From positions 1-25,486 of the IMG/VR virus record IMGVR_UViG_3300017782_000195: DNA of 25,486 nucleotides. One strand, 5' to 3'. Within the stretch, counting starts at the first letter, position 1. The number at the start of each line of letters is the position of its first letter. Under the pieces are notes generated by a model that saw only the letters and a program-made list of their open reading frames with translations, had not been told where the DNA came from and did no database searches. Made by a program: the position numbers and the translations under genes. Below are positions 1,020-23,164 of the stretch, piece by piece. Origin of the DNA: a virus.

Positions 1020-1075
1020 TTAACCATACCCGTTCAAGTATAAAAACCTTCCGATACGACTAAATCAGCGACTAA
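1020..1075 (-). promoter_or_regulatory. TTAGTCGC compound promoter P1 (ArdA-like operon)
   Basis: Read on the minus strand: TTAGTCGC (1075-1068), TTAGTCGT exactly 12 bp downstream (1063-1056), ATCGGAAGG, then the TATA box TTTTTATA (1046-1039). Eleven bases further comes ATGGTTAAATAGAG, a sequence shared with the promoter at 4907-4943. Transcription should start about 25 bases after the TATA box, near 1021-1024. Confidence 0.85.
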
Positions 1076-1076
1076 T

Positions 1077-1346
1077 TTATTGCATCTCCTTTATGGTTTT
1101 TACAACGGCATTTTTTTGCCAAGAGTGACGGTGAAGCGGTGCTTGATAACCACATTGAGGGCATTGCCAATCGACAACCCCAATTTTACTTTTAGGGTCA
1201 ATGTAAGTTATCAATTTTAACCTTGCGCGATATTTGGTAATGCGACTCAAACAAATGTTTGCACATATCGTTTCAGGGCAATAGGGCCGGTCGGAATCGC
1301 GTAGCGAATTGACAATTTCAACATACTCTAAGGTTTTATCGGTCAC
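1077..1346 (-). CDS. Small zinc-finger-type protein with RITKYR motif
   Basis: An 89-residue basic protein of unknown family. Cysteine pairs suggest metal binding: an N-terminal Cys/Cys pair (CPETICANIC) and a C-terminal CPQCG knuckle followed by histidines (LHRH). The central SRITKYRARLK stretch is strongly basic and is echoed at the start of the protein at 1817-2347 (NRITKYRDRRK), with 20 identical bases at DNA level. Its ATG overlaps the upstream stop by four bases. A nucleic-acid-binding role is plausible and would fit an early regulator, but it is not shown by any recognised domain. Confidence 0.78.
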   Translation of the reverse strand: MTDKTLEYVEIVNSLRDSDRPYCPETICANICLSRITKYRARLKLITYIDPKSKIGVVDWQCPQCGYQAPLHRHSWQKNAVVKTIKEMQ

Positions 1347-1732
1347 TCTTCTTCACCCCAATTGTTGTCCTTGTTGAGAGTGTCGTCTCGCTCATGTCGA
1401 GGCCATACTGAAATGCTGTAACGCGAAGTTTTCATGTAGAAGAAAGGTGTCATTTTACAATTTCTGTATTTTATTACTTCTTGATGTTTAGCCATGATTT
1501 TTTCGATTTTACCTAAAGGTAAAGTTAGCCATTCACTTGAACGCTCTTCGGATGATAGGTGTAACAAAATAGAACCGCGCAAACGGTGTATACTTTCGGG
1601 AAAGTCCTCAATGTTGGTTTTTCTTTGTCGGGCCAACATTTTACGGTAAACCGCAACGGCGTTCTTAGTGTCGACGCGAACCCATCCTTCAAATGTTCCT
1701 TCTGTTTCTGCTTTTGGTATTTTTATTTTCAT
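1343..1732 (-). CDS. Hypothetical 129-residue protein
   Basis: No family is recognised. The 129-residue product is charged and soluble, with several basic patches and a very acidic, asparagine-rich C-terminal tail ending WGEEE. The start at 1732 is supported by GGAGG about nine bases upstream. It is the first gene after the TTAGTCGC promoter at 1776-1812 and is coupled to the next gene by an ATGA overlap. Position alone suggests an early accessory function. Confidence 0.8.
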   Translation of the reverse strand: MKIKIPKAETEGTFEGWVRVDTKNAVAVYRKMLARQRKTNIEDFPESIHRLRGSILLHLSSEERSSEWLTLPLGKIEKIMAKHQEVIKYRNCKMTPFFYMKTSRYSISVWPRHERDDTLNKDNNWGEEE

Positions 1733-1754
1733 GTTTTTTGCCTCCTTCGGCTCT

Positions 1755-1812
1755 ATATCTACATATTAGTCCAAGTATAAAAACCTTCCGATGCGACTAA
1801 TTGTGCGACTAA
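1755..1812 (-). promoter_or_regulatory. TTAGTCGC compound promoter P2
   Basis: Read on the minus strand: TTAGTCGC (1812-1805), a second TTAGTCGC 12 bp on (1800-1793), ATCGGAAGG, then TTTTTATA (1783-1776) followed by CTTGG. The spacing is base-for-base the same as in P1. About 11 bases after the TATA box is ATATGTAGATATAGAG, resembling the start region of P1. It drives the genes at 1343-1732 and 1077-1346. Confidence 0.85.
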
Positions 1813-1816
1813 ATTA

Positions 1817-2347
1817 TTATTCTTCGACCGCCTCCACCTTTTTGTAAGGTTGGCCTACGGCGTATAATTTCAGGATTTTTCGCCGGTCTGTTCCGGTTTT
1901 TGGTGCTGTATCTACATGCACTTCGCCGTTGGCGTTTACAAGTAGAACATGCCCCTTGACATAAACGATGTATGCTGAAATTGAAATTGATGAGGTCGTC
2001 TGTTCAATCCAAGGTTCTTCGGATTCGGGACACCAATAATGCTTTTTTACGACGGACTTTTGACCTTCGGCCAATTCGTTGAAGTCGTTGAAATGTTTTA
2101 GGAATTGGTTTACCGTTAAAGGTATTTTTTTGTATTTTGTAGCCCACACGCTTTTTCGCGAACGGACACTCCACTTTTTACGGGCCGCCCGTAGAAGGTC
2201 GCCTAAATTGTGAAGGTATCGCACTTGGTCGGCAACGCCCAAACAATGCGCCACATGATGAGCGCATACATTTTGATTCGGGTTTTCCGAATTGTTTGAG
2301 TAGCGTTTTCGCCGGTCGCGATATTTGGTAATGCGATTCTTACTCAT
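1817..2347 (-). CDS. Papain-fold-like small protein (putative)
   Basis: The 176-residue product begins with a very basic tail (MSKNRITKYRDRRKR). The rest has the layout of small phage proteins with a papain-like cysteine-peptidase fold: a Cys-containing first helix (NVCAHHVAHCLG, Cys28), a basic middle, a TVNQFLKHF helix, and a strand pair AYIVYVKGHVLLVNANGEVH with His133, then Asp146. These residues are possible catalytic Cys/His/Asp, but the spacing is inferred and activity may be lost. Start at 2347 has GGAGGC upstream and an ATGA overlap with the preceding 33-residue gene. It is the last gene of the P3 operon. The fold assignment is from memory of similar phage proteins and is only moderately sure. 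Confidence 0.6.
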   Translation of the reverse strand: MSKNRITKYRDRRKRYSNNSENPNQNVCAHHVAHCLGVADQVRYLHNLGDLLRAARKKWSVRSRKSVWATKYKKIPLTVNQFLKHFNDFNELAEGQKSVVKKHYWCPESEEPWIEQTTSSISISAYIVYVKGHVLLVNANGEVHVDTAPKTGTDRRKILKLYAVGQPYKKVEAVEE

Positions 2348-2445
2348 TTTTTCGCCTCCAATTTTTCTTTTAACTTGGCGATTGTCGTTCTTGCGACCAC
2401 CAATTCGGGAGTGCGTTCAACAAATGGGGGAAACCAAACCTTCAT
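2344..2445 (-). CDS. 33-residue miniprotein
   Basis: A very small gene supported by context, not homology. Its ATG overlaps the stop of the upstream mini-gene (ATGA), a GGTGGCG ribosome site lies eight bases before it, and its stop overlaps the next ATG. The product starts MKVWFPPFVERTPELVV and ends in a lysine/glutamate-rich helix. No function is recognised. Confidence 0.6.
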   Translation of the reverse strand: MKVWFPPFVERTPELVVARTTIAKLKEKLEAKK

Positions 2446-2504
2446 TGAAATCGCCACCTATTGTATCGAATCGCGATTTGAATTAACCATGCCGTGAATA
2501 TCAT
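2442..2504 (-). CDS. 20-residue miniprotein
   Basis: The reading frame starts four bases after the upstream stop, with GGGGTTG before it as a possible ribosome site, and ends in an ATGA overlap with the next gene. The product is mostly hydrophobic then basic (MIFTAWLIQIAIRYNRWRFQ), so it could be a tiny membrane-associated peptide. It could also merely be a translational relay that keeps ribosomes moving between neighbours. Confidence 0.4.
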   Translation of the reverse strand: MIFTAWLIQIAIRYNRWRFQ

Positions 2505-2508
2505 TTTT

Positions 2509-2682
2509 TCACAACCCCAATTTGTTTCTAATCCATTGAACCGCCGACCAAAACTCTTCATCGGTATATCGCTCTTCGTTTTCGTCTAAAACGGTTGCTT
2601 GTAAGTAAAAACTGTTATGAGCATAACCTTGATTGACTATGCCGTGAGCGCATTCTTTGATTCTTTTTGTAATTCTCTTCAT
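2509..2682 (-). CDS. Hypothetical 57-residue protein
   Basis: No family is recognised. The start overlaps the stop of the zinc-ribbon gene upstream (ATGA), with GGCGGAG five bases before it. The product opens with a basic MKRITKRIKECAHG stretch, reminiscent of the RITKYR motif in two other genes of this arm, and ends in an acidic then tryptophan-rich helix (TDEEFWSAVQWIRNK). It sits second in the P3 operon. Confidence 0.65.
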   Translation of the reverse strand: MKRITKRIKECAHGIVNQGYAHNSFYLQATVLDENEERYTDEEFWSAVQWIRNKLGL

Positions 2683-2834
2683 TGTTCTCCGCCTCTCTTA
2701 ATCAATTTTGTATCGCAAGTAGGGCAACGGCACGAGTGAGAATCAATATTCCATGTTTCATCGCATTTAGGACAACGCCCGTCTTCATACCAATCCATGT
2801 GTTGTTCATCATATTGCCATTGTATTTTTCTCAT
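2679..2834 (-). CDS. 51-residue zinc-ribbon miniprotein
   Basis: Two or three cysteine knuckles are visible: RCPKCDE, then CRCPTCD. They are separated by a short aromatic and polar loop, the usual layout of a single zinc ribbon. A basic tail (KLIKRGGEQ) follows. It is the first gene after promoter P3, with GGAG about eight bases before the ATG. Many viral zinc-ribbon miniproteins act as nucleic-acid or protein adaptors. Nothing here fixes the target. Confidence 0.75.
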   Translation of the reverse strand: MRKIQWQYDEQHMDWYEDGRCPKCDETWNIDSHSCRCPTCDTKLIKRGGEQ

Positions 2835-2856
2835 TGTTTCATCTCCTTCCGGTTAA

Positions 2857-2913
2857 TTAACCATTCCCCTATCAAGTATATAACCCTGCCGATGCGACTA
2901 ATACTGCGACTAA
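2857..2913 (-). promoter_or_regulatory. TTAGTCGC compound promoter P3
   Basis: Read on the minus strand: TTAGTCGC (2913-2906), a second copy 12 bp on (2901-2894), ATCGGCAGG, then GTTATATA (2884-2877) followed by CTTG. The start region AATGGTTAATTAACC lies about 11-12 bases beyond the TATA box. It drives five small genes down to 1817. Confidence 0.85.
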
Positions 2914-2973
2914 TTTTGGGTTTCCCTGAGACGGGATGCCTCTTTTTAGCCACCACATCAGCCGTAAACGCGT

Positions 2974-4494
2974 TCACTTAGTCCATCCTCCGGTGATTGA
3001 GATTCGGTTGAGTGTGGTTGAACCGTTGCCTTGGTATTCGCCGTGTCGCTTGACCGTTCCGGTCAAAGTCAATTTAGCACCGGTCTTGATTCCTCCGACA
3101 TCGGCTTGACCGAAGGTGACAAACGCCTCGTTTTTGGCGGTTCTAAACTCGGTGATGGTGTAACCGTTGCGCGTCTCCCGTTGCGAGTGGTAGAATACTT
3201 TGACGGTAATTCTTTGACCGGCATCGGCGGTGTATGATTTGGTTTTCGATTCGGGTTTGATGTCGGACTTTTCTGCGAACCATTGCTCATGTATTTTTTT
3301 GAGCCATCGCGATGACGCGCCCGCATACACATTCCAAGTCTTTCGTTGAACCACTCCGCATTCAGCCACCGATAATACTTTTCGGGTAAAATCACTTGGC
3401 CGGTCATTTTTCATGTCCTCGACCGCTTGAGCAAAGTCCGACGCGAGCATCATAACTTTGGCCGACGGTCGCCACTCCATCATGTTAAGAAGCGTGTGCA
3501 TGGGTAAAGTATTGTTGATGTCGGCGTTGCGTTTGATGTTGAAAATATTTGGTAATTTGAGCAAGGGTCGCCATTCTACCGGTCTTGTCGGGTGTGTCCG
3601 AGACCATTGACCCAATTCTAAGAGGTCTTCATCCTCAAGATATTTTACGCTTGAAAATAAGAGTGTATGACCCAAACCGCTTTTGTATGGTATTTTTTGG
3701 GTCGCATACGCACCGATGAGCATGTTCATGAGCGAGGTTTCAAAAGTAGTCTCGGACACGCGACCGCCATGTGAGGTGGGTTCTTCCGGTGATGCCGTCG
3801 CATAGCGTAGTAAATCCTCAAGGTCTTTGGGGTCAAGGCCGGTGTAGGATTTGAGGCATGTTTTACCCACCCACCGTTTTTGACCCTTGGGGGATTCGAC
3901 GATGAAAACCTGTTTTCTACGCCTACGGCCCGATGTGCAGTGGTCGCATTGGTCGATGTATTTTTCCGGTAATTTTTTACGGCCTACGCGTTCGGGTATT
4001 TTTTCACCAAACATGGCCGTGTAAATCGCGGGCGTGTCTTGAGGATTGTTGGGGTCGGCCGGGTCGCACACGGAGATAACGCGCCACTTTGACGGTGGGG
4101 TATATCGGGCCTTGATTTGAACGGTCGAATATCCAACGAATTGAGATTCTTTGAAAACATCGGGTGGGGTGTGTAACTTTCCGATGTGGTCGAAGTTGCG
4201 CCATATTTTTTCGATGTCGGGAGATTTGAGTCGATAGAGCCGACGGTTGACTTTCGGATTAAAACGCCATTTAGCACCGGTCATATCCTGAAATTGGGCA
4301 TCGAAAACCGAACCGTGTTTTCTCTTGCATTTGACAAAGGCGCGATAAGTGGGTGGCGGTGAATCCTCAAACGAATATTTGAACGGAATGTCACGCGAGG
4401 CACATTTTTTGGAGAACCTCTCAAGCGACTTTTGAACGCGCGGCCATTGCGCGTGAGTGCATGAAAAATCGACATCAATATCATGCTTCGACAA
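2974..4494 (-). CDS. Zinc-finger plus OB-fold-like nucleic-acid-binding protein
   Basis: A 506-residue protein. A Cys4-type or related site is suggested by CDHC at residues 183-186, a basic SGRRRRKQVFIVE segment and GKTCLKSYTGL (Cys213). That arrangement recurs in phage and plasmid proteins together with a C-terminal OB-fold-like domain. Here the matching C-terminal segment (about 415-500) has ITVKVFYHSQR, an FRTAKNEAFVTF strand and TGTVKRHGEYQG. The middle (about 220-410) is unrecognised and helical. A TTG start is used: GAGGTG lies seven bases upstream, and the frame overlaps the preceding gene by 14 bases. Single-stranded DNA or RNA handling during replication is inferred from the domain types. 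Confidence 0.75.
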   Translation of the reverse strand: MSKHDIDVDFSCTHAQWPRVQKSLERFSKKCASRDIPFKYSFEDSPPPTYRAFVKCKRKHGSVFDAQFQDMTGAKWRFNPKVNRRLYRLKSPDIEKIWRNFDHIGKLHTPPDVFKESQFVGYSTVQIKARYTPPSKWRVISVCDPADPNNPQDTPAIYTAMFGEKIPERVGRKKLPEKYIDQCDHCTSGRRRRKQVFIVESPKGQKRWVGKTCLKSYTGLDPKDLEDLLRYATASPEEPTSHGGRVSETTFETSLMNMLIGAYATQKIPYKSGLGHTLLFSSVKYLEDEDLLELGQWSRTHPTRPVEWRPLLKLPNIFNIKRNADINNTLPMHTLLNMMEWRPSAKVMMLASDFAQAVEDMKNDRPSDFTRKVLSVAECGVVQRKTWNVYAGASSRWLKKIHEQWFAEKSDIKPESKTKSYTADAGQRITVKVFYHSQRETRNGYTITEFRTAKNEAFVTFGQADVGGIKTGAKLTLTGTVKRHGEYQGNGSTTLNRISITGGWTK

Positions 4495-4711
4495 ATTGAG
4501 TCACCTCGGATTCTGTAAGGGGGTAGTAGCCGTTTTTGAATTGCGCGTGTGTGATGTAGCGAGATGTTTTGAACATGCCGTTGATGGTGTCAAGGTGTGC
4601 AATTCGGGTGTGAGTTTCCGTGTGCGAGACTACAAAGATGATGTGATATTTTCTCAAGGGAAACTTTGTAGTGGTAACTGATACGGGTTTGAAGTATTGG
4701 GCCGACTTCAT
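4481..4711 (-). CDS. Hypothetical 76-residue protein
   Basis: No family is recognised. The ATG at 4711 was chosen because it follows the upstream stop by two bases and has GGGGTG about nine bases before it. A longer reading from 4807 would overlap nearly all of the zinc-ribbon gene. The product looks like a compact mixed alpha/beta protein with a strand-rich centre (KYHIIFVVSHTETHTRIAHL) and an acidic C-terminus. It is second in the P4 operon. Confidence 0.72.
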   Translation of the reverse strand: MKSAQYFKPVSVTTTKFPLRKYHIIFVVSHTETHTRIAHLDTINGMFKTSRYITHAQFKNGYYPLTESEVTQFVEA

Positions 4712-4713
4712 AT

Positions 4714-4872
4714 TCAAGCACCCCAAAGGAAAGTAAAAGTGCCACAGTGAATGCAACGGGCATTTTCGTTCGATACGCCGATGGGTGTAAACTTTTTGCA
4801 GCCACACTTTTTACAGCGCACACCTTTCAAGGTGATATGGTCGTTCTTGGGTTGGGTTGTTTGTCGGGTCAT
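4714..4872 (-). CDS. 52-residue zinc-ribbon miniprotein
   Basis: A clean one-domain zinc ribbon: VRCKKCGCKKF provides the first CxxC, and ARCIHCGTF the second, 17 residues further. A short polar N-terminus precedes it and the protein ends FLWGA. The start has AGAGGC about eight bases upstream and a 5' leader of about 15 bases from promoter P4. It is the first gene of the operon that ends with the 506-residue DNA-binding-type protein. Confidence 0.78.
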   Translation of the reverse strand: MTRQTTQPKNDHITLKGVRCKKCGCKKFTPIGVSNENARCIHCGTFTFLWGA

Positions 4873-4879
4873 TTTCTTT

Positions 4880-4943
4880 GCCTCTATTTAGCCATATACA
4901 TACTACTATTTAAGGCTTCCGACGCGACTAAAACTGCGACTAA
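4880..4943 (-). promoter_or_regulatory. TTAGTCGC compound promoter P4
   Basis: Read on the minus strand: TTAGTCGC (4943-4936), a second copy 12 bp on (4931-4924), GTCGGAAGC, TATA box CTTAAATA (4914-4907), 11 bases, then ATGGCTAAATAGAG, nearly identical to the start region of P1. It fires leftwards from the edge of the large TTAGTCG control region. Confidence 0.85.
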
Positions 4944-5880
4944 AAAGTGTTATCGACTAAATCAGCCCCTCGCGAGCGTGTGTGCGTTCATATTATTACG
5001 AGATTTGGGGCGGTATTTTTCGACTAATTTTTATCGACTAAATCGGCAACGCCTGATTCCGACGGCTCGAAAATTAGTTACGACTAATTAAATGTAACAT
5101 TTTCACACGGTTTTTAGTCGGGGTAACGAAAACGACTAATATTATTTTTTTTACTGCGATTATTAGTCGTGCCTAATTTTTCGGATGGATTTTTGTAGTC
5201 AATAATTTTTAAGTGTTTTTAGTCGGGGCTAATTTTTTAGGTGGCGTTTTTTACGAAAAACCTTGGCATCATCTTAGTCGTGGCTAATTTTTTTGGCGAA
5301 TCTTTTTGGGCGACTAATTTTTTATCGACTAAAACGCCATTAGTCGCGACTAAAATAGTTGCTCGCAGTCACGCCTTTAGTCGCAAAATTGAGACATCGA
5401 CGCTTAGGAGGGGGTAGTTGGGCCACAGTGAAGAATTGCGACTAAAACGCACACTGAAAGCCTGTTTATTAGTCGCGACTAAAATTAAACGCGACTAAAA
5501 ATATTGGTCGCAGTCACCCGTTTAGTCGCAAACCCAAAGTCGCCCACGCTGACACCCTCATAATCGTCTCCATCTTTTTTTTGCGACTAAAAGGCACACT
5601 GCGCTCTACTTTATTAGTCGCGACTAAAATCGGCGTTAATCGCGACTAAAATACAGGGGCGACATACATCGTTTAGTCGCAAAATCCTCACGCTCACGCC
5701 GAACCCCACCTATTCGTCGCCACCTCAAAATTATCGACTAAAACGCTTACCGAGGCCCATAAAATTAGTCGCGACTAAAGCCGAATTAGTCGATAAAAAT
5801 ACGCAAAACGACTAAAAATAAAAAAATAGTCGCGATTAAAAGTTACTGCTCAGGTCAAAATTAGTCGCCTAATTAGTCGC
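4924..5880. repeat. Dense TTAGTCG/CGACTAA array in the divergent control region
   Basis: About 33 exact copies of TTAGTCG in either orientation lie in under 1 kb, with no convincing gene. The left part (5114-5290) holds single or degenerate head-to-head sites such as TTAGTCGTGCCTAA, TTAGTCGGGGCTAA and TTAGTCGTGGCTAA at 5163, 5219 and 5274, each followed by a T-run. The right part holds perfect palindromes TTAGTCGCGACTAA at 5340, 5469, 5614 and 5765, and imperfect ones at 5636 and about 5827. The array lies between the divergent promoters P4 and P5 and shares their box. Possible roles are master operator, replication origin or partition site. Confidence 0.9.
5340..5778. repeat. Three-unit higher-order repeat, 145-151 bp period
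   Basis: Each unit runs palindrome TTAGTCGCGACTAA, then TTTAGTCGCAAA (5376, 5521, 5672), then a 43-48 bp core, then TTGCGACTAAAA or TTATCGACTAAAA (5436, 5581, 5731), then the next palindrome (5340, 5469, 5614, 5765). From unit to unit each element repeats at 145 then about 151 bp. The two inner elements are inverted and bracket the core. CGCAGTCAC precedes the TTTAGTCGC element in the first two units, and GCACACTG follows the right element at the first two right-hand sites. Confidence 0.85.
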
Positions 5881-5913
5881 ATCGGTGGGTATAAATAGGT
5901 GCAGCCCGTAGGG
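5861..5913 (+). promoter_or_regulatory. TTAGTCGC compound promoter P5
   Basis: TTAGTCGC at 5861, a second copy exactly 12 bp on at 5873, ATCGGTGGG, a consensus TATA box TATAAATA at 5890-5897, 11 bases, then TAGGG at 5909. It mirrors the minus-strand promoters and faces right. The start region GCAGCCCGTAGGG is closely matched in P6. Confidence 0.9.
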
Positions 5914-5930
5914 TAACTTGGAGATATAAT

Positions 5931-6185
5931 ATGAGCCCCACCCCGAAAACTGATACATGGATTGACATTAACACCTTTGATGTGCCGATAGCCGAATACA
6001 GACAATTAGGCTACCTGCACCAAAAAGGCGAATACAAGAACGCAGACACGAACGACCACCCACACTTCACCTTTACAAAGTATGTAGCCGCCACCGCAAT
6101 GAGCATCGCCTTGCCCGCTCGCTGGTTGCCGTCGAATACAGACATGGTGCGAGTCTGTTACACCTTCTACCCCGTAGACGAATAA
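5931..6185 (+). CDS. Hypothetical 84-residue protein
   Basis: No family is recognised. A GGAGAT ribosome site lies six bases before the ATG, and the gene stands alone between promoter P5 and a strong hairpin terminator. The product is hydrophilic with several aromatic residues and histidines (NDHPHFTFTKY), followed by an alanine-rich segment and a YTFYPVDE end. A monocistronic gene with the best TATA box in the window is probably strongly expressed early. A role in takeover of the host is possible but unproven. Confidence 0.8.
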   Translation: MSPTPKTDTWIDINTFDVPIAEYRQLGYLHQKGEYKNADTNDHPHFTFTKYVAATAMSIALPARWLPSNTDMVRVCYTFYPVDE

Positions 6186-6210
6186 TTCTCAACCTGAGAA
6201 ATTAGATTAC

Positions 6211-6465
6211 CGACTAAAAGTCGTTGCCGCCCTGCTCTCCGGTTCGCCGGAGGGTGGGGCTTTTTTTACGACTAATTTTTTTAGCGACTAATTTTTTTTA
6301 TCGACTAAATTATTTAGCGACTAAACCCGACTAAAATATATCGACTAAACCCGACTAAATTAGTCGAAACAAATGAGATAATTAGTCGCGACTAAATTAC
6401 TATCCTCACGCTAAAAAATAGTCGCGATTAAAGTGTGATGCTTCCTGCGACTAAAAAATTAGTCG
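6211..6465. repeat. Second TTAGTCG/CGACTAA array
   Basis: About 13 exact CGACTAA/TTAGTCG sites lie between the gene at 5931 and the promoter at 6459, including one perfect palindrome TTAGTCGCGACTAA at 6382-6395 and an outward-facing CGACTAAATTAGTCG. Several sites on the plus strand read CGACTAATTTTTTT, combining the box with a T-run. No gene is visible here. Confidence 0.88.
6229..6267 (+). terminator. UUCG hairpin terminator with T-run
   Basis: A 14-bp stem, with three G-U pairs and a perfect CTCCGG/CCGGAG top, closed by a TTCG tetraloop. Seven T follow directly (6261-6267). It ends the 5931 transcript. This is the intrinsic-terminator form familiar from bacteria. The T-run alone would serve archaeal RNA polymerase. 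Confidence 0.85.
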
Positions 6466-6499
6466 AGTCGAGCATATGATATACTGCAAGGCCGTAGGG
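6448..6499 (+). promoter_or_regulatory. TTAGTCG promoter P6, variant box arrangement
   Basis: TTAGTCGA at 6459, nine bases, TATA-like ATGATATA at 6476-6483, 11 bases, then TAGGG at 6495, the same geometry as P5. The upstream box is inverted (CGACTAA at 6448), so the pair is head-to-tail reversed. Since the ATG is at 6505, the leader would be only about 5-10 bases. Confidence 0.75.
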
Positions 6500-6504
6500 A
6501 TGCC

Positions 6505-7065
6505 ATGGCAAACGACCATAACCCCGAAACCGGCCCTATTGAGGATGAATCCTCCGTTACCCGACAATCCCTTGAGGTTGCTATGATGCAATTGCATGAA
6601 GTCATTGACACCGTGGAGAACGAACAAGACTACATCATAGACGAAACTCACGGCCTTGAAGCCCTTGAAGAGATTATGACCCACCTTAAAGACGCTTACG
6701 CCGCCCTTGATACCAAAGCACTACCAACAGGCAACGAAGACAAGCAATGGGTGGATTCAGGATTCCTCGTCAACCTTCCTTCGCTTAACTGCGGTCACGC
6801 CCCAACCCACGCATACATGCAAACATGGATGGATGGGTCGAGAGACATGGTAGCCGAGTGCCACCGGTGCAATTACTCCGCCGTCGTCAACGAAGCATAT
6901 GACAATTACAACGGCAACGACATGAACACCGACACACACCCCGACTTCGATGACTGCGAAGGCGAGCGACAAGCCGAAGCCGAAGCCGAGCGTCAAGCCG
7001 ATGCTCAAGCCGAACTTCGAGCCGAAGCATGTTACGGAGACGACTTCGACGGAGGGTGGTATTGA
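6505..7065 (+). CDS. Acidic 186-residue protein with zinc site and Ala/Glu/Gln repeat
   Basis: No family is recognised. The N-terminal half is acidic and helical. A possible metal site consists of CGH (96-98) and CHRC (119-122). Near the C-terminus a degenerate repeat of Glu-Ala/Gln-Ala units (about 154-174) forms a charged helix. The start at 6505 lacks a Shine-Dalgarno site and lies within about ten bases of the predicted transcript start, so it is probably read from a nearly leaderless message. Overall acidity could indicate DNA mimicry or protein binding, but this is speculation. Confidence 0.8.
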   Translation: MANDHNPETGPIEDESSVTRQSLEVAMMQLHEVIDTVENEQDYIIDETHGLEALEEIMTHLKDAYAALDTKALPTGNEDKQWVDSGFLVNLPSLNCGHAPTHAYMQTWMDGSRDMVAECHRCNYSAVVNEAYDNYNGNDMNTDTHPDFDDCEGERQAEAEAERQADAQAELRAEACYGDDFDGGWY

Positions 7066-7349
7066 TGTTCGACATTTACACCAACGCCGATGAATATGAC
7101 TTCATATGGGAATGCTGTATCAGTGGATGCGGTCGCACCAACATTTGCGAACCACGCACCTCACCACGCAAAGCCTTCAAGGATGCCGTCAAACACGCTC
7201 AAGAATGCCTTACAGACCTCCGCACCCGTCAAGGCACTGATACATGGCCTTTGGACTACACCGTTGATGATTTCATGTCCGACTGCATGAGCATCAAAGC
7301 AACAGCACCTGCGATTTGGTCGAGAACCAAAGCCAACAAAAAATCCTGA
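7065..7349 (+). CDS. Hypothetical 94-residue protein
   Basis: No family is recognised. The ATG at 7065 overlaps the previous stop (TGATG), with GGAGGGTGG about seven bases upstream. A longer reading from 7029 lies inside the preceding gene. Five cysteines in the product (ECCISGCGRTNIC, plus QEC and SDC) suggest metal binding or disulphides. The centre is helical and basic. It is the last gene before the second hairpin terminator. Confidence 0.75.
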   Translation: MFDIYTNADEYDFIWECCISGCGRTNICEPRTSPRKAFKDAVKHAQECLTDLRTRQGTDTWPLDYTVDDFMSDCMSIKATAPAIWSRTKANKKS

Positions 7350-7369
7350 TTTCACAGGCTCGCACTTAA

Positions 7370-7581
7370 CGACTAATCCCCGCCCCCTTCGGGGGGTGGG
7401 TTTTCGGTATCGACTAATTTCGATGCCTTTTTTTTATCGACTATTTTTTTATCGACTAAATTATTTATCGACTAATTTTATACCGACTAATTTCGGTGAC
7501 TTTTTTTATCGACTAATTTTTTTTATCGACTAATTTTTTATCGACTAATTTTTCAGGCCTTTGAAAAATAGTCGCGACTAA
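7370..7581. repeat. Third CGACTAA array, phased at 15-17 bp with T-runs
   Basis: CGACTAA occurs at 7370, 7411, 7453, 7469, 7484, 7510, 7527, 7542 and 7575, with CGACTAT at 7438. Most are in one orientation and most are embedded in TATCGACTAATTTTT. Steps are 15-17 bp with gaps of 26-33 bp. The last site is an ATAGTCGCGACTAA near-palindrome. It follows the terminator of the 6505-7349 operon and contains no gene. Confidence 0.85.
7379..7404 (+). terminator. UUCG hairpin terminator
   Basis: Nine-bp stem CCCGCCCCC / GGGGGTGGG closed by a TTCG loop, followed by TTTT. It lies 30 bases after the stop of the gene ending at 7349 and has the same design as the terminator at 6229-6267. Confidence 0.75.
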
Positions 7582-7602
7582 TTTTAGTGGCTTCAAAATT
7601 AC

Positions 7603-7648
7603 ACTTAGTAACATTATGTTACTAAGTAACATAATTGCACTAAGTAAC
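7603..7648. promoter_or_regulatory. GTTACT-AGTAAC operator-like palindromes
   Basis: A perfect inverted repeat has 12-bp arms (ACTTAGTAACAT and its complement) around a single T at 7603-7627. It overlaps a second palindrome, GTTACTAAGTAAC, at 7618-7630, and is followed by CACTAAGTAAC at 7638-7648. This sequence is unrelated to the TTAGTCGC box and looks like a binding site for a second dimeric regulator. Confidence 0.65.
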
Positions 7649-7667
7649 AAAGTGGCACTCATGGAGA

Positions 7668-7701
7668 TTTCGGCCTTCCGAAAACATGAACGGGTCATGT
7701 T
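7668..7701. repeat. Two adjacent short inverted repeats
   Basis: TTTCGG-CCTT-CCGAAA (7668-7683) is followed by AACATGA-ACGGG-TCATGTT (7683-7701). Both are perfect, with 6- and 7-bp arms. They may be RNA hairpins or protein sites in the gene-poor stretch 7590-7750. Confidence 0.5.
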
Positions 7702-7752
7702 AATTGTGATGCCTCCGGCAATAGGCTCGCAGTGCATCGAATAGCCCTAAAA

Positions 7753-7890: not shown

Positions 7891-7924
7891 TCGCTAAATG
7901 CTTATTACCCCCTCATACTTAGGG
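7887..7924 (+). promoter_or_regulatory. Weak promoter-like sequence before the 423-residue gene
   Basis: A one-mismatch box TTAATCGC (7887-7894) is followed by an AT-rich CTTATTAC (7901-7908), 11 bases and TAGGG (7920), reproducing the TATA-to-start spacing of P5 and P6. The box-to-TATA distance is 6 instead of 9 bp and the TATA match is poor, so this is tentative. Confidence 0.35.
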
Positions 7925-7930
7925 GGGGGC

Positions 7931-9202
7931 ATGGAGGAAAGGAATTACCAACATACCGAAGTAGAACCGGCGTTTGAGCAAATCGCTCAAGCATCCGAGA
8001 CACCGACCGACCTTTGCGAGGTTACGCAATTACAACGGTTCAAGCATGGCTTGAGTCATTGCTTGTTTACCGCTATTACGGGGACTGCAATGGATAAGAA
8101 AACCATGAAGACCCTAAGCAAAAAGCAACGCGAGCAAATAGGTTACAAAGGCACACCAATGCCCGACCGCGCCTTGATTCGCACCGCCAAGGTGACACCG
8201 AAGCAAGCACTTGATACCGATGCGCTGATGGAGGCGTATGGCAAAACTACCGTGTCATACATCAATCGAAATGGCGTTCTCGCTGATGTTGCCATTCAAG
8301 GAAACTTGTTCAAGCAATTGCTCAACGACACCACTTCAACCGCCAAGAAAATGCGAGACATCGCCCGTTCTATCATGGCCTATGATAGCATCCAGAAATT
8401 GAATGCCTTGGGCTTGACATCGAAGGACATTGCACACACCACGGTAGCCGATACCCTTGCACTTGAGGACTTGATTTCACACCGTTCAATCGAAGCGTTC
8501 GGACTCAAAGCCTCCGACCGTGTGCGACATGTCGAAGTCAACCCTTCGGATTTAGTCCGACAAGGCTTCACCTCGTTGCGATTGCATGAAGCGAACGGTG
8601 AGTATGACCCGTTGACCTCCATCTATCAACATGGAGTCAAAGTCCACACCTACGGCCCAACGAAGCACCTTGACAACGGCGTTTTAGGTTACTACCACTT
8701 GAGCATCAATGTCGATACGCTTGAAGACATCACGGTGTCGCCTAAACAGATGTATTGCTCAAAGGCTCAAGGCGGTTGCGGAAAACCACTCGGACTTCAA
8801 CAAGTCGCAAAGGGTGGCGCGAACGGGCCGAACACTTGTCCCCGATGTGGCAACCCGAAGCACTTGATGAGCATTCAATCCGCCGACATTGCTTTGCCTC
8901 AATTGTTGACCGGTGGCCGTCTCAAGACCCACGGTGGGCATCAAATCCACATGACTTCATGCCGAATCAACAAGAAGCAAGCCGAAGCAATCATGGCGGT
9001 CAAGCGTGGTGTTCTATCAGCCGAAGCCGCGTTGAACCTACTGATTGAGGGCGGTGTCCGTGTGAATTGCGCTCAAATCCGAAAGAAAGCACCGGCAAAA
9101 CTTGTAGTGTGCGCCTTCGATGTAGCGTATAACGGCATCACCTTCGGACTCGCAGTCGAGCGAATCGAAACAATTGACCGATACCTTCCGACCGACGCTT
9201 GA
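7931..9202 (+). CDS. 423-residue zinc-ribbon protein, function unknown
   Basis: No family is recognised. The N-terminal two thirds look helical and mixed, with a repeated Lys-rich region near residues 55-90. A zinc ribbon is indicated by Cys276 and Cys283 (CSKAQGGCGK) and Cys303/Cys306 (CPRCG). A basic helical segment (INKKQAEAIMAVKRG) and a beta-rich end follow. The ATG at 7931 was preferred to 7898 because TAGGG lies 11 bases before it, as the transcript-start element does in P6. Its size and isolated position at the end of the rightward arm suggest a core regulatory or replication protein. The reading frame has the same codon style as its neighbours. Confidence 0.82.
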   Translation: MEERNYQHTEVEPAFEQIAQASETPTDLCEVTQLQRFKHGLSHCLFTAITGTAMDKKTMKTLSKKQREQIGYKGTPMPDRALIRTAKVTPKQALDTDALMEAYGKTTVSYINRNGVLADVAIQGNLFKQLLNDTTSTAKKMRDIARSIMAYDSIQKLNALGLTSKDIAHTTVADTLALEDLISHRSIEAFGLKASDRVRHVEVNPSDLVRQGFTSLRLHEANGEYDPLTSIYQHGVKVHTYGPTKHLDNGVLGYYHLSINVDTLEDITVSPKQMYCSKAQGGCGKPLGLQQVAKGGANGPNTCPRCGNPKHLMSIQSADIALPQLLTGGRLKTHGGHQIHMTSCRINKKQAEAIMAVKRGVLSAEAALNLLIEGGVRVNCAQIRKKAPAKLVVCAFDVAYNGITFGLAVERIETIDRYLPTDA

Positions 9203-11390: not shown

Positions 11391-12826
11391 CAATGCTCAC
11401 CAACAGGGGCAAACATAGAGCCAATAATTCCTTTTTCTTTGTCGATAATGTGTGCGGCTAACCCTGCCTTAGAAGTAGTGTAGCCTTGTCGTGCGTGGTA
11501 TCGGTCATGTCCTGCCAAACTCGGCAATTGGATAATGACACACCCTTTGCTTTCCAAAACCTTTCGATGGTGCAAATGTCCGTGAAACCAAGTGTGGTGT
11601 TCGCACTTACCCCATAACTCGCGTTGTTCGCATGACATTAACTCTTCAAGGTTCTTAGCCCCATCTCCGTGAATAAAGCCGAGAAGGTTATTACCATACT
11701 GAACATACTGTCGAGAAGCAGGAGATACTACAACCTCACAGTCTTCGCTTTCTTCGTATACTGCCGACAAATACATCATCAGTGCAATAGCACTCATGCG
11801 GTCGTGATTACCCGGCATAAAGACTACCTTAACAGGCGCAACTTGTCGGAGTAAATCAATGTGTTCACGCGCTAATTTACAACCGGTCATTAGGATTTCA
11901 GCAGGAGAGCCATACATGTCTTGAGGTGTTCCTTTGGTTGTCGTTCCGCCGTCGGTATCAACATGAAACCAGTCGCTACCGGTAGAGATAATGATTTGTT
12001 CCGGCTTACTGTAAAGACGGCTAATTAACTCTTGGGTCTTACCCATAAGTCGAGACTTAGCCTCTTCAAAGTTATAGGTTTCACCGACTTCATCGACCCA
12101 CCCATACTTACCCCAATGAAAATCAGTCGGGCTAATAACAAGAGAAAACGGGTCGCTACTTACAGGTAATGCCAATTGAGAGACACTTGTTGCCTTTTCT
12201 TGTATGAGATTCCTAAAGTCAGCAAGAACATTTGTCTCAAACAACCTATACTTGTCGGCATCTTCTTCTATTTCTTTCCACTTTTTACGCTCAAACTTCT
12301 TATGCAACTCATGTCGACGCTTGAGAACCAAGTCTTCTACCAACTGTTCCACATTTGACTCCATGATTTGTTCGTCGGTGTAAATATCCATGTCGTGAGT
12401 CCATCCGTGTCGTCGCCTATACTCGTCAAACCACGCTCGCGGTATACCAAACTCTCGACATACCTCATTGATAGATGCCGGTTTGCCAACCATACTGCTA
12501 TACGCAGTCTTCATGGCTCTATGCCTATCACCTTCGACCTTAATCATAGTGTTGGCAGTAGAAAGAAAGGTAAAGTATTCGTCGTTTACTTGGTCGTAAA
12601 AGTATGACTCCGGCACTTTTTCGGCAAAAGTATTATCGTTTTCGACTTGTTGGTGTTCAATTGTCAATTTTTTACTGTTCTTCATTTTAGTAATGCTCAT
12701 TTCCCAACCCTTAACAGATTTTTTGTTATCCATGTCGTGCAATATTCGAGCGTTTTCCATAACGCTCTTCGACGGGTCGTAAAACTCCAAAATTAAGTCG
12801 TGGCCGTAGTTAGGTGGTGCGCGCAT
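11390..12826 (-). CDS. HTH-metallophosphoesterase fusion
   Basis: The 478-residue protein has a C-terminal calcineurin-like phosphoesterase domain with all metal motifs in order: SPTDFHWG (Asp235, His237), GSDWFH (Asp285, His288), GNHDR (339-343), HGD (386-388) and HGHLHH (415-420). The N-terminal third contains a helix-turn-helix-like segment, NEVCREFGIPRAWFDEYRRR (about 120-139), followed by a charged helix. Such enzymes cleave phosphodiesters or phosphomonoesters with two metal ions. The substrate here is unknown. It is the first gene of the packaging operon, with a TATA box CTTATAAG 31 bases upstream and no ribosome site, so it is probably leaderless. No separate small terminase is seen, so the HTH part may supply DNA recognition. 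Confidence 0.88.
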   Translation of the reverse strand: MRAPPNYGHDLILEFYDPSKSVMENARILHDMDNKKSVKGWEMSITKMKNSKKLTIEHQQVENDNTFAEKVPESYFYDQVNDEYFTFLSTANTMIKVEGDRHRAMKTAYSSMVGKPASINEVCREFGIPRAWFDEYRRRHGWTHDMDIYTDEQIMESNVEQLVEDLVLKRRHELHKKFERKKWKEIEEDADKYRLFETNVLADFRNLIQEKATSVSQLALPVSSDPFSLVISPTDFHWGKYGWVDEVGETYNFEEAKSRLMGKTQELISRLYSKPEQIIISTGSDWFHVDTDGGTTTKGTPQDMYGSPAEILMTGCKLAREHIDLLRQVAPVKVVFMPGNHDRMSAIALMMYLSAVYEESEDCEVVVSPASRQYVQYGNNLLGFIHGDGAKNLEELMSCEQRELWGKCEHHTWFHGHLHHRKVLESKGCVIIQLPSLAGHDRYHARQGYTTSKAGLAAHIIDKEKGIIGSMFAPVGEH

Positions 12827-20194: not shown

Positions 20195-20595
20195 CAGTCA
20201 CTACCGACAACATTCGCGATTTGCTTAACAGACCAAGAGGTTTGAATGAAGCAACAATCACTGAATACATTACAATGCGAACCGAACAAGTCAATAAGAC
20301 TTCTCGCAAAACAACATCTTCGGGTTTAGCGGCGGATTCAGCAAACGCTGTAACAACAGCACAAAAAGAGTCGGCCATCAAAGCACTTGTATGTGTTGAT
20401 TGTTTACAGGTTCTTATTGATACAGCCCCTTCATATGTAAGAGATAGCGAAAAGAAAGAAAACGACATTCGTTTTTCGGCTCAACTTAACTCGTTTAAGA
20501 AAAGGGCTGATGAATTGCTTGGCGTTATTCAAGAAAAGGGTGGTATGGCTGTATTGTCAAAGTTAAAATCCACCAAGACGAAGCAAAGTGAGTGA
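20191..20595 (+). CDS. Probable small head-completion protein
   Basis: The 134-residue product is almost wholly helical. It has an N-terminal segment (DNIRDLLNRPRGLNEATITEYI) typical of head-tail connector or adaptor proteins, an alanine/threonine-rich middle, and a charged C-terminal helix ending in a lysine tail. The start overlaps the upstream stop by four bases with GGTGAAG before it. The call rests on fold character and place in the operon. No family motif is certain. Confidence 0.6.
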   Translation: MTVTTDNIRDLLNRPRGLNEATITEYITMRTEQVNKTSRKTTSSGLAADSANAVTTAQKESAIKALVCVDCLQVLIDTAPSYVRDSEKKENDIRFSAQLNSFKKRADELLGVIQEKGGMAVLSKLKSTKTKQSE

Positions 20596-20596
20596 T

Positions 20597-23164
20597 ATGG
20601 CAACTATTACATGGATTGGTGGGACAAGTAATAGTGCCAATACTGCCTCTAATTGGCAAGGTGGGACAAAACCCGCCGCAGGTGATGTAGCACTTTTTGA
20701 CAACAACGCAGTAGCAAATTGCGTATGGGATATACCTTTACCTTCTACCGCTTTGAGTGTTGACGAAATAATTGTCGAAGATACTTACAAAGACACTACT
20801 ATTCCGAGAACAATAACTCTTAATGCCCAAGTAAGAATTAAAGGTCTTTTTCTTAACGGAACAATAGTAGCCGGAACACAAAATATAATACACTTTGAAA
20901 GCGGTTTTGGCTCATACAAAACATACAACAACAGATATGTTTTGAACGGCACTGATTCTGTTTCTACCGGTTTACAGTATAAAATGACAGGAACAACAGT
21001 AAAGTTTGATGACGGAAATTACCCGACTGTTATATTGGTAAGTGGCACTTATGGCCCTGATTATGTTGCGCCGACAAGCACAGCAGTAGGAAAAGCAGTT
21101 TTTACAAGTTTTGAAATACAGTCTAACGCTACCTTTGCGCCATTAACAGATTTAACCCCCGAAGACAGACAAAAAACATTTAGTTTTTTAGACACTCCTG
21201 CAATCGGAATACCTATATTCGATATGGGGCAAGCGGTTTTTGAAATGACAAGTAATAGTAGTGGTGTAAGAATACCAACAACAAGTCATACTTCAATGAC
21301 AAAATATCGCAAAGTAGTGTTGAAAGCGGAACAAGCAGGACAAAGAATCACTGTTGACGACAACACAATTCTTTCGTGCGACGAATTAGAAATACTTGAT
21401 GGTGTTATGCTAATAGGGCCAAAAGGCAATACGGCATACGGGGCTGACATACAAACTATTTTACCGCCTAAAATAAGAGGAACATGGTCTTTTTATCAAA
21501 TTAGCAACGGGTTGTATCGCAGTCCAAAAAACGCTGTTGGGCCTATGCCTATTCGACACCCACTACAATTTGGTGGAACGGCGGCTGTCGGTTCGGTAGC
21601 GGCAGGTAGTGTTTTTTTAGGTAAAAGTGGTGCAACAGATAATTTAACCCTAAAAAACGCAAACGGAGATGTAACTTTCGGCCCTGCGGCATCCGGCTTT
21701 ACTACTTTCGATAGTGGTTTAGATGTAACAGGAACAATCCGACAATCAAACGCTACATCAGCAATAATATATGCTGATGCTGACGGCGACTTAGAAGAAT
21801 TAACAGTCGGTTCGGGATTAACACTTACCGGTAGCACATTGGCGGCAAGCGGTGGTGGTGGTAGCGGAACAGTCACAAGCGTTGCTGTAAGCGGCTCAGA
21901 CGGCATACAAGTGGACTCCGGCTCTCCTATTACCACAAACGGAACAATCGCTCTTGGAGTCGATAAAAACACCCTTCTTTCACACATCAATGTCGATGAT
22001 GGTGCTAATGTAACAAATGCAACGACTGTCACAGCCGCAGGTGCGCTTATGGATAGCGAGGTTACAAATCTCGCTCAAGTCAAAGCATTCGACTCCGCCG
22101 ACTACGCAACCGCCGCTCAAAACGGAACAGTAACAAGCGTAGCAACAACAGCCCCAATTACGGGTGGCACTATTACAAGCACAGGCACAGTGGGCTTTGA
22201 CATTTCGGGCTTGACGGCCAATACAGCGATTGCCGACGCTGATTTGTTATTACTTGACGACGGCGCAAACGGAACAAACCGCAAAATTACTTTTACCGAA
22301 GTTAAAGAGTGGATTCGTGGAGAGGGTGTTAAACACGGAACAAACAGTCGAGATGGCGGAGTTAATCAGTTAAGAATCCGAGACTCAAGAGATGATGGCG
22401 AATTAACACCCGACGATTTTCTTAGTAAACAAGTGTCGTTTGACTTTACCGACGACATCGCAGGTTCAACAAACTCTTGGGATGGAGTTATGACAATGAA
22501 GGGTTGGACTGATTCATACCGTGTGTTTCAACTGTTTTCTTCGGCTTCGAGTGAAGGGTCAACCGGTATAAATACTGAACCTTTGTATTTTAGAAGCGGC
22601 GAGGACACAGGTTGGGGTGCTTTAAGACAAGTTTTAACATTTCCCGGAACAACCCCAAATGCCGATGGCTCGTCGGGGCAGGTTTTACAAACAAACGGTT
22701 CGGGCGCGCTTTCTTGGGCGACTGTATCGGGTGGAAGTAGCGCAAAAGAAACCTGCATGGTTCGCCTTGCTAATGACATTGCGTCTTTTACCCCCACAGG
22801 TGCTTATGTTTTAGTAAATGCCGCCGGTAATTGGACTTCTACAAATGTTGATTTTGATGAAAACACAGGACTTTACACCGCCCCGACCACAGGTGTGTAT
22901 CGCATTTCATGGACTATTTCGTTTCGTTTCACTTCTTCGGGCCAAACGCAAAACTCTCGCATTTATGTAAATGGTAATTATGCGGCTCAAGGTGCAGGAA
23001 ACTCAACGGGTAATTGGCCCGTTTTCGGCGGTTCTATTTTATTAAACCTTCAACAAGGTGATGAGGTAGGGCTGTATGTGTATATTTCAAACACTGGAAA
23101 AACGCTTGTTGGTGATTCTTTGGCAATGGGTGCAACACAAATGAGTATCAATGAGGTGGGATGA
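20597..23164 (+). CDS. Large fibre/adhesin with C1q-like C-terminal domain
   Basis: The 855-residue protein should mediate host contact or decorate the capsid. The N-terminus has WIGGTSNSANTASNWQGG and GDVALFD, as in secreted beta-helix adhesins, then beta-rich strands to about residue 300. A glycine linker (SGGGGSG) leads into two copies of GTVTSVA...TT/SGTI segments of the type found in phage tail fibres. The last 135 residues (FTPTGAYVLVNA, FDENTGLYTAPTTGVYRISW, LNLQQGDEVGLYVYI) match the C1q/TNF-like jelly roll that trimerises and binds ligands. The ATG at 20597 follows the upstream stop by one base. A start at 20588 (GTG) is less likely. Confidence 0.82.
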   Translation: MATITWIGGTSNSANTASNWQGGTKPAAGDVALFDNNAVANCVWDIPLPSTALSVDEIIVEDTYKDTTIPRTITLNAQVRIKGLFLNGTIVAGTQNIIHFESGFGSYKTYNNRYVLNGTDSVSTGLQYKMTGTTVKFDDGNYPTVILVSGTYGPDYVAPTSTAVGKAVFTSFEIQSNATFAPLTDLTPEDRQKTFSFLDTPAIGIPIFDMGQAVFEMTSNSSGVRIPTTSHTSMTKYRKVVLKAEQAGQRITVDDNTILSCDELEILDGVMLIGPKGNTAYGADIQTILPPKIRGTWSFYQISNGLYRSPKNAVGPMPIRHPLQFGGTAAVGSVAAGSVFLGKSGATDNLTLKNANGDVTFGPAASGFTTFDSGLDVTGTIRQSNATSAIIYADADGDLEELTVGSGLTLTGSTLAASGGGGSGTVTSVAVSGSDGIQVDSGSPITTNGTIALGVDKNTLLSHINVDDGANVTNATTVTAAGALMDSEVTNLAQVKAFDSADYATAAQNGTVTSVATTAPITGGTITSTGTVGFDISGLTANTAIADADLLLLDDGANGTNRKITFTEVKEWIRGEGVKHGTNSRDGGVNQLRIRDSRDDGELTPDDFLSKQVSFDFTDDIAGSTNSWDGVMTMKGWTDSYRVFQLFSSASSEGSTGINTEPLYFRSGEDTGWGALRQVLTFPGTTPNADGSSGQVLQTNGSGALSWATVSGGSSAKETCMVRLANDIASFTPTGAYVLVNAAGNWTSTNVDFDENTGLYTAPTTGVYRISWTISFRFTSSGQTQNSRIYVNGNYAAQGAGNSTGNWPVFGGSILLNLQQGDEVGLYVYISNTGKTLVGDSLAMGATQMSINEVG

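Follow-up and report, generated by a model that had tools for sequence, protein, structure and literature searches.

Nested palindromic modules and matching early-promoter sites in a tailed virus, probably of marine archaea: a candidate viral replication origin

Genes and features at the locus

The window, that is, the whole stretch of DNA that was analysed (25,486 bp; IMG/VR record IMGVR_UViG_3300017782_000195), contained a block of short repeated sites between the gene for a 52-aa zinc-ribbon protein and a fast-evolving gene for a 434-aa protein (Table 1). A small gene within the block was considered and rejected, as the ORFs there were short and showed no conservation. The Rfam scan of the window gave no match. 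Elsewhere in the window, the protein encoded at 439-981 matched the PHROG of an anti-restriction protein, and the equivalent region of a relative (G001, see below) had a member of the ArdA family. A 506-aa early protein (2974-4494) was assigned to phrog_2319 (function unknown), with a weak OB-fold match at its C-terminus; it was present in some array-bearing viruses, and tblastn found none in the fragments of others.

Table 1. Coordinates of the features at the locus (positions in the window)
Feature	Position	Strand	Remarks
Tandem sites upstream of TATA	1057-1075	-	Early promoter
Tandem sites upstream of TATA	1794-1812	-	Early promoter
Tandem sites upstream of TATA	2895-2913	-	Early promoter
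52-aa zinc-ribbon protein gene	4714-4872	-	Adjoins the block wherever relatives' contigs cover that side
Tandem sites	4925-4943	-	Promoter of the zinc-ribbon gene operon
AT-rich flank	5163-5307		Three direct repeats (5163, 5219, 5274) 55-56 bp apart; repeat family D9; candidate unwinding region
Palindrome TTAGTCGCGACTAA	5340-5353		Outer edge, module 1
Module 1, 129 bp	5347-5475		Half-modules 5347-5383 and 5439-5475; core 5384-5438 with central G-run
Palindrome TTAGTCGCGACTAA	5469-5482		Outer edge of module 1, module 2 side
Module 2, 129 bp	5492-5620		Half-modules 5492-5528 and 5584-5620; core 5529-5583
Palindrome TTAGTCGCGACTAA	5614-5627		Outer edge, module 2
Module 3, 129 bp	5643-5771		Half-modules 5643-5679 and 5735-5771; core 5680-5734
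Palindrome TTAGTCGCGACTAA	5765-5778		Outer edge, module 3
Two tandem TTAGTCG, 12 bp apart	5861-5879	+	10 bp upstream of TATAAATA; promoter of the 5931-6185 gene
Site cluster, mostly one orientation	6211-6395		Between two early genes; ends in fifth palindrome (6382-6395)
One-way cluster, nine CGACTAA	7370-7581		Several sites followed by T-runs; ends in ATAGTCGCGACTAA
434-aa fast-evolving gene	7898-9202	+	Other side of the block; C-terminal half with four invariant Cys

The 434-aa protein was 39-50% identical among close relatives, compared with 92-93% for the terminase. Its structure models had a pLDDT of 62 (whole protein) and 71 (C-terminal half). For the C-terminal half, Foldseek ranked single-strand-binding proteins and MCM subunits highest, at E values of 0.07 or worse, and the Z values from VIA-align were 2.4 or less. 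Given these weak E and Z values, an OB fold with a zinc insert was taken as a lead only, and the modelled half may bear a weak resemblance to an OB fold, with or without such an insert.

The relative G001 (IMGVR_UViG_3300025168_000072; 68,595 bp) was taken as complete because of a 126-bp end overlap. The block contained its largest intergenic stretch and was located between two divergent transcription arms; genes pointed away from it on both sides, except for the terminase-exonuclease pair, and the arms converged near 30 kb, roughly opposite the block. Of 74 sites in this genome, 63 were inside one 3-kb stretch. By profile, a family-B polymerase and an RFC-like AAA clamp loader were encoded. 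The genome also had two nucleases (ERCC4 and PD-(D/E)XK), a GroEL-type chaperonin, terminase, and portal, and PCNA-like and primase-like proteins were recognised by eye. The same gene content has been described for magroviruses of Poseidoniales (PMC10768690, PMC12999244), and the Magrovirales gene set (family-B polymerase, clamp loader, chaperonin, and tailed-virus structural genes), as profiled in PMC10768690, was found in G001. Judging from this gene content, the uncultured window virus is probably a virus of marine archaea; a host search based on the chaperonin gave no match.

Sites and ordered modules

The 14-bp palindrome TTAGTCGCGACTAA, which an earlier note on this DNA had placed at 5340, 5469, 5614, and 5765, was exact at all four positions, and the scan of the window added a fifth exact copy (6382) and a copy with one mismatch (7568). 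With up to three mismatches allowed, 21 matches were found against 1.0 expected from dinucleotide shuffles (largest shuffle, 4). The half-site CGACTAA/TTAGTCG occurred 61 times, every copy within 1057-7575; 100 first-order Markov simulations gave 3.1 copies on average and never more than 8. The earlier note had also claimed a period of 145-151 bp. The steps between the four block palindromes were 129, 145, and 151 bp; the two longer steps were therefore present, but the first was shorter, and the distance between modules varied among relatives. Since the inter-module period was not conserved, a nucleosome-like period was rejected. Mobile inverted-repeat elements were also rejected because the modules were at the same places in relatives.

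The ordered unit was a 129-bp module, CGACTAA-N23-TTAGTCG-N55-CGACTAA-N23-TTAGTCG, present in three copies in the window, in which site starts were spaced 30, 62, and 30 bp (approximately 3, 6, and 3 helical turns). When the same number of sites was placed randomly in the intergenic region, the mean was 0.00005 modules. A GCAGT element occupied a fixed place in most of the 23-bp spacers and was inverted between halves, so that the module was a palindrome of two 37-bp halves. Both GCAGT and ACTGC were present in module 2, whose G-run was on the strand opposite to that of module 1, and the GCAGT elements of module 3 were degenerate. The right inner arm of module 3, previously given as TTGCGACTAAAA, was actually TTATCGACTAAAA. 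The 55-bp core was A/T-rich at its edges and contained a G-rich element close to the dyad, the orientation of which varied between modules and between relatives. The order of the array proved to be real and stronger than had been noted; neither the GCAGT elements nor the tandem promoter sites had been recognised, nor had the one-way clusters at 6211-6395 and 7370-7581.

Sites in the modules were inverted, without T-run-linked sites. The clusters between short early genes were mostly one-way, with T-runs after some sites. At 6231-6270, a GC-rich hairpin (CTCCGG...CCGGAG) followed by a T run and then by tandem CGACTAA was terminator-like in appearance.

Conservation of the module among relatives

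Fifteen IMG/VR stretches contained the exact module. A motif-relaxed pattern, which omitted CG and the variable third base, matched 20 contigs among 2.9 million viral contigs and gave no match in about 85,000 bacterial and archaeal genomes; the block DNA itself had no match in 50,697 phage records. At least 13 contigs had several copies of one initiator-like site clustered in cis at fixed spacing (30, 62-63, and 30 bp between site starts), and this geometry was kept despite changes in the site and in most of the intervening sequence. Module length was 129-131 bp throughout the relatives, with a core of 55-56 bp. The gene order terminase, 434-aa gene, block, and zinc-ribbon gene was common to the compared relatives as far as their contigs reached, and the order of elements, on which the earlier note had staked its proposal, was kept as well. 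Terminase identity among relatives ranged from 100 to 75%. The blocks of the window and G001 were 68% identical, with nearly all sites and internal spacings the same.

Distant relatives (terminase identity of approximately 60%) had different repeats in the corresponding region. In G016 (IMGVR_UViG_3300030372_002896), 93 copies of GTTACAAA, mostly tandem, were located between early genes (41958-49515), and G014 (IMGVR_UViG_3300030376_005461) had 20 copies of CCTACGAA at the corresponding locus (20352-23000). The 37-55-37 module was looked for in both genomes and was absent, so the ordered module is a property of one clade, and the locus may have carried a dense array of repeats for longer than the module. 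One inverted GCAGT/ACTGC pair in G014 (22685), 78 bp apart compared with 87-89 bp in modules having both elements, is possibly a relic of the module. G016 looked complete from its end overlap, and several of its early promoters had in common a TTACGCTGCGCCA-like element upstream of TTTAAATA.

Site dialects of early promoters and block

At early promoters, the 7-mer was always directed towards the gene and lay 10-14 and/or 21-23 bp upstream of a TATA-like sequence. Promoters of the window and G001 had two sites, 11-12 bp apart; only the proximal one was present in G007, L024, and L052, and only the distal one in G003 and L019.

The sites within each virus shared a preferred eighth and third base. 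Variants among the relatives were CGACTAA plus A, T, C, or G, as well as CGTCTAAC and CGGCTAAC. By virus, the dialect was CGACTAAT in G001, CGACTAAC in L024, CGACTAAG in L052, CGACTAAA in L048, L049, and L053, CGTCTAAC with CGGCTAAC in L057-L059, and CGGCTAAC in L019/L056; the eighth base of the window sites was mixed, A and T. Module geometry and GCAGT were retained in the CGTCTAAC group, and the CGGCTAAC virus was also matched by the relaxed module pattern.

Promoter sites were nearly always in the block dialect of their own virus. All 12 in G001 ended in T, all five in G007 were CGACTAAA, and all three in L052 were CGACTAAG; the same held for three of the four in L024 (CGACTAAC) and the one in L019 (CGGCTAAC). 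The five in G003 all had C as their last base, and their third base was T, G, or C, like its own block. Because of this agreement, it is well supported at the level of sequence that one co-evolving DNA-binding protein serves both the early promoters and the block. The earlier suggestion that block and promoters are bound by the same factor likewise gained good support from the shared site, the fixed distance to TATA, and the matching base changes. As the motif changed in step at both places, the block very likely serves as the docking platform of a single master protein.

The dialects could also track host lineages, if the virus exploited a host transcription factor and different dialects stood for different hosts, and no viral binder was found in the families scanned. 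We consider this improbable, since only a few kb of the viral genome carried the site, the whole set of sites in a virus shifted together among otherwise close relatives, and the module pattern was missing from the bacterial and archaeal genomes searched. Pfam and PHROGs scans of early genes recognised no clear DNA-binding family and no initiator. Four small G001 proteins (12280-12687, 7298-7714, 1030-1362, and 5916-6236) were winged-helix-like by eye and are candidate site binders.

Proposed function of the block

Four features were observed directly: the sites are ordered, this order is conserved although the motif changes, promoters carry matching sites, and the dialects of these sites co-vary with those of the block. 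On this basis we propose that the block is a cis-acting nucleoprotein platform for a single virus-encoded DNA-binding protein, predicted to recognise the 8-bp site CGNCTAAN. At early promoters, the protein would occupy one or two sites, one helical turn apart, immediately upstream of BRE/TATA, where it would most likely activate transcription. Archaeal activators typically bind directly in front of the BRE, from which we infer activation rather than repression. In the block, it would bind the inverted pairs CGACTAA-N23-TTAGTCG around the GCAGT element, with two half-modules facing each other across the 55-56 bp core. Bound proteins would be approximately 3 and 6 helical turns apart, so that the DNA could be folded into a defined complex. 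The three modules would most likely act as the viral replication origin, at which this complex would load the virus's own replisome.

A viral replication origin is the best reading of the block, because it lies between the divergent arms of a complete relative that has its own polymerase and clamp loader; we hold this reading with about even confidence. Position, geometry, and gene content fit the origin suggested in the earlier note, but the GC skew was ambiguous. The cumulative skew of G007 had its maximum at 54,362, inside the block, whereas in G001 the maximum at the block was local and the global one was at the convergence of the arms; third-position skew mostly tracked the coding strand. 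No clear unwinding element was indicated by AT content. Several relatives had a weak AT-rich patch to the same side of their modules, with similar patches elsewhere too. Against an origin, large promoter regions are also capable of high order, and the distant relatives without recognisable modules at the locus must replicate too.

The main rival to the origin reading is a purely regulatory block, namely a dense operator or enhancer of the divergent early operons, with the one-way clusters acting as roadblocks between genes and without any origin function. The early promoters use the same site in the same dialect, and the one-way clusters with their T-runs point in this direction. We nevertheless regard it as less likely than an origin: the modules have inverted sites, separated by 3 and 6 helical turns, and none that is linked to a T-run; they contain GCAGT, which had no fixed place in the promoter sites; and the block is located where the two arms of the whole genome diverge. 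We also know of no archaeal enhancer of this size.

Synteny leaves room for a packaging (pac) start site, as the terminase gene is approximately 4 kb away in all relatives and the circular complete relative with its 126-bp overlap is compatible with headful packaging. Control of early promoters by the same site would be unexpected for a terminase subunit, and known pac sites, to our knowledge, carry far fewer than about 60 sites; a pac function is thus very improbable. A partition/centromere or tethering site, keeping the viral genome in dividing cells, had been among the earlier suggestions, and arrays of inverted sites do resemble centromere-like sites in general form. It found no positive support and appears the most remote of the readings considered: Pfam detected no partition (ParA) or integrase family among 46 scanned proteins of G001, and a lytic life cycle is predicted for related magroviruses (PMC10768690, PMC12999244).

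Novelty and comparison with known systems

Arrays of sites for viral origins or regulators are known as a kind. In the searchable literature, a scope outside which the original magrovirus paper and a 2025 paper on Poseidoniales viruses fell, no published description of the module, of an array in this host group, or of rewritten codes was found. We tentatively suggest that the block may represent a new class of element that combines a viral replication origin with master control in tailed viruses of marine archaea, in which nested palindromic modules of 129-131 bp serve one viral protein and the code has been rewritten several times, with approximately 60 origin and early-promoter sites switching together. 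There is so far no experimental knowledge of how replication starts and early genes are switched on in tailed viruses of uncultured marine archaea, and the block supplies a concrete, testable candidate sequence with a defined binding-site code. As the code of relatives changed at some 60 sites at once, co-evolution of the protein and its set of sites is directly testable.

Archaeal chromosomal origins (ORB, bound by Orc1/Cdc6) have inverted, repeated protein sites with a G-rich feature nearby, as in the block. The block motif is presumably unlike ORB, and no Orc1/Cdc6 family was detected by Pfam among the 46 G001 proteins. Inverted repeats also occur at the Rep-Arvir rolling-circle origins of archaeal viruses, but those of pleolipoviruses have a conserved hairpin downstream of the rep gene, unlike the block; Poseidoniales and magroviruses are not mentioned in that paper (PMC13107129).

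Iteron-type origins with dual-role initiators (plasmid Rep, geminivirus Rep) resemble the block in that a short site is repeated many times at one locus and recurs in related form at promoters, with a site specificity that shifts between relatives. Here, however, inverted pairs are nested in 129-bp palindromic modules with GCAGT, the virus is a tailed one of probable archaeal hosts, and the initiator is only predicted. In Epstein-Barr virus, one viral protein (EBNA1) binds clustered sites with strict spacing at the origin oriP, and the oriP clusters differ in geometry, as do the clusters here (PMC2654434, PMC3095595). In contrast to that system, the present virus is of archaeal type and tailed, with no related protein; module size, spacing, and GCAGT differ, and the origin role is putative.

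Mycobacteriophage Cluster A stoperators are likewise tens of short asymmetric sites that mostly point one way between genes and whose motif drifts among related phages; they are dispersed over temperate phage genomes and bound by the immunity repressor (PMC6550527, PMC9283540). Such genome-wide dispersal was not found here, where most sites were within about 3 kb (63 of 74 in G001) and in modular order, with no sign of lysogeny (integrase or ParA family) among the 46 G001 proteins scanned. Site orientation followed transcription, as in stoperators, at the mostly one-way clusters and the promoter sites, whereas the sites of the modules were inverted.
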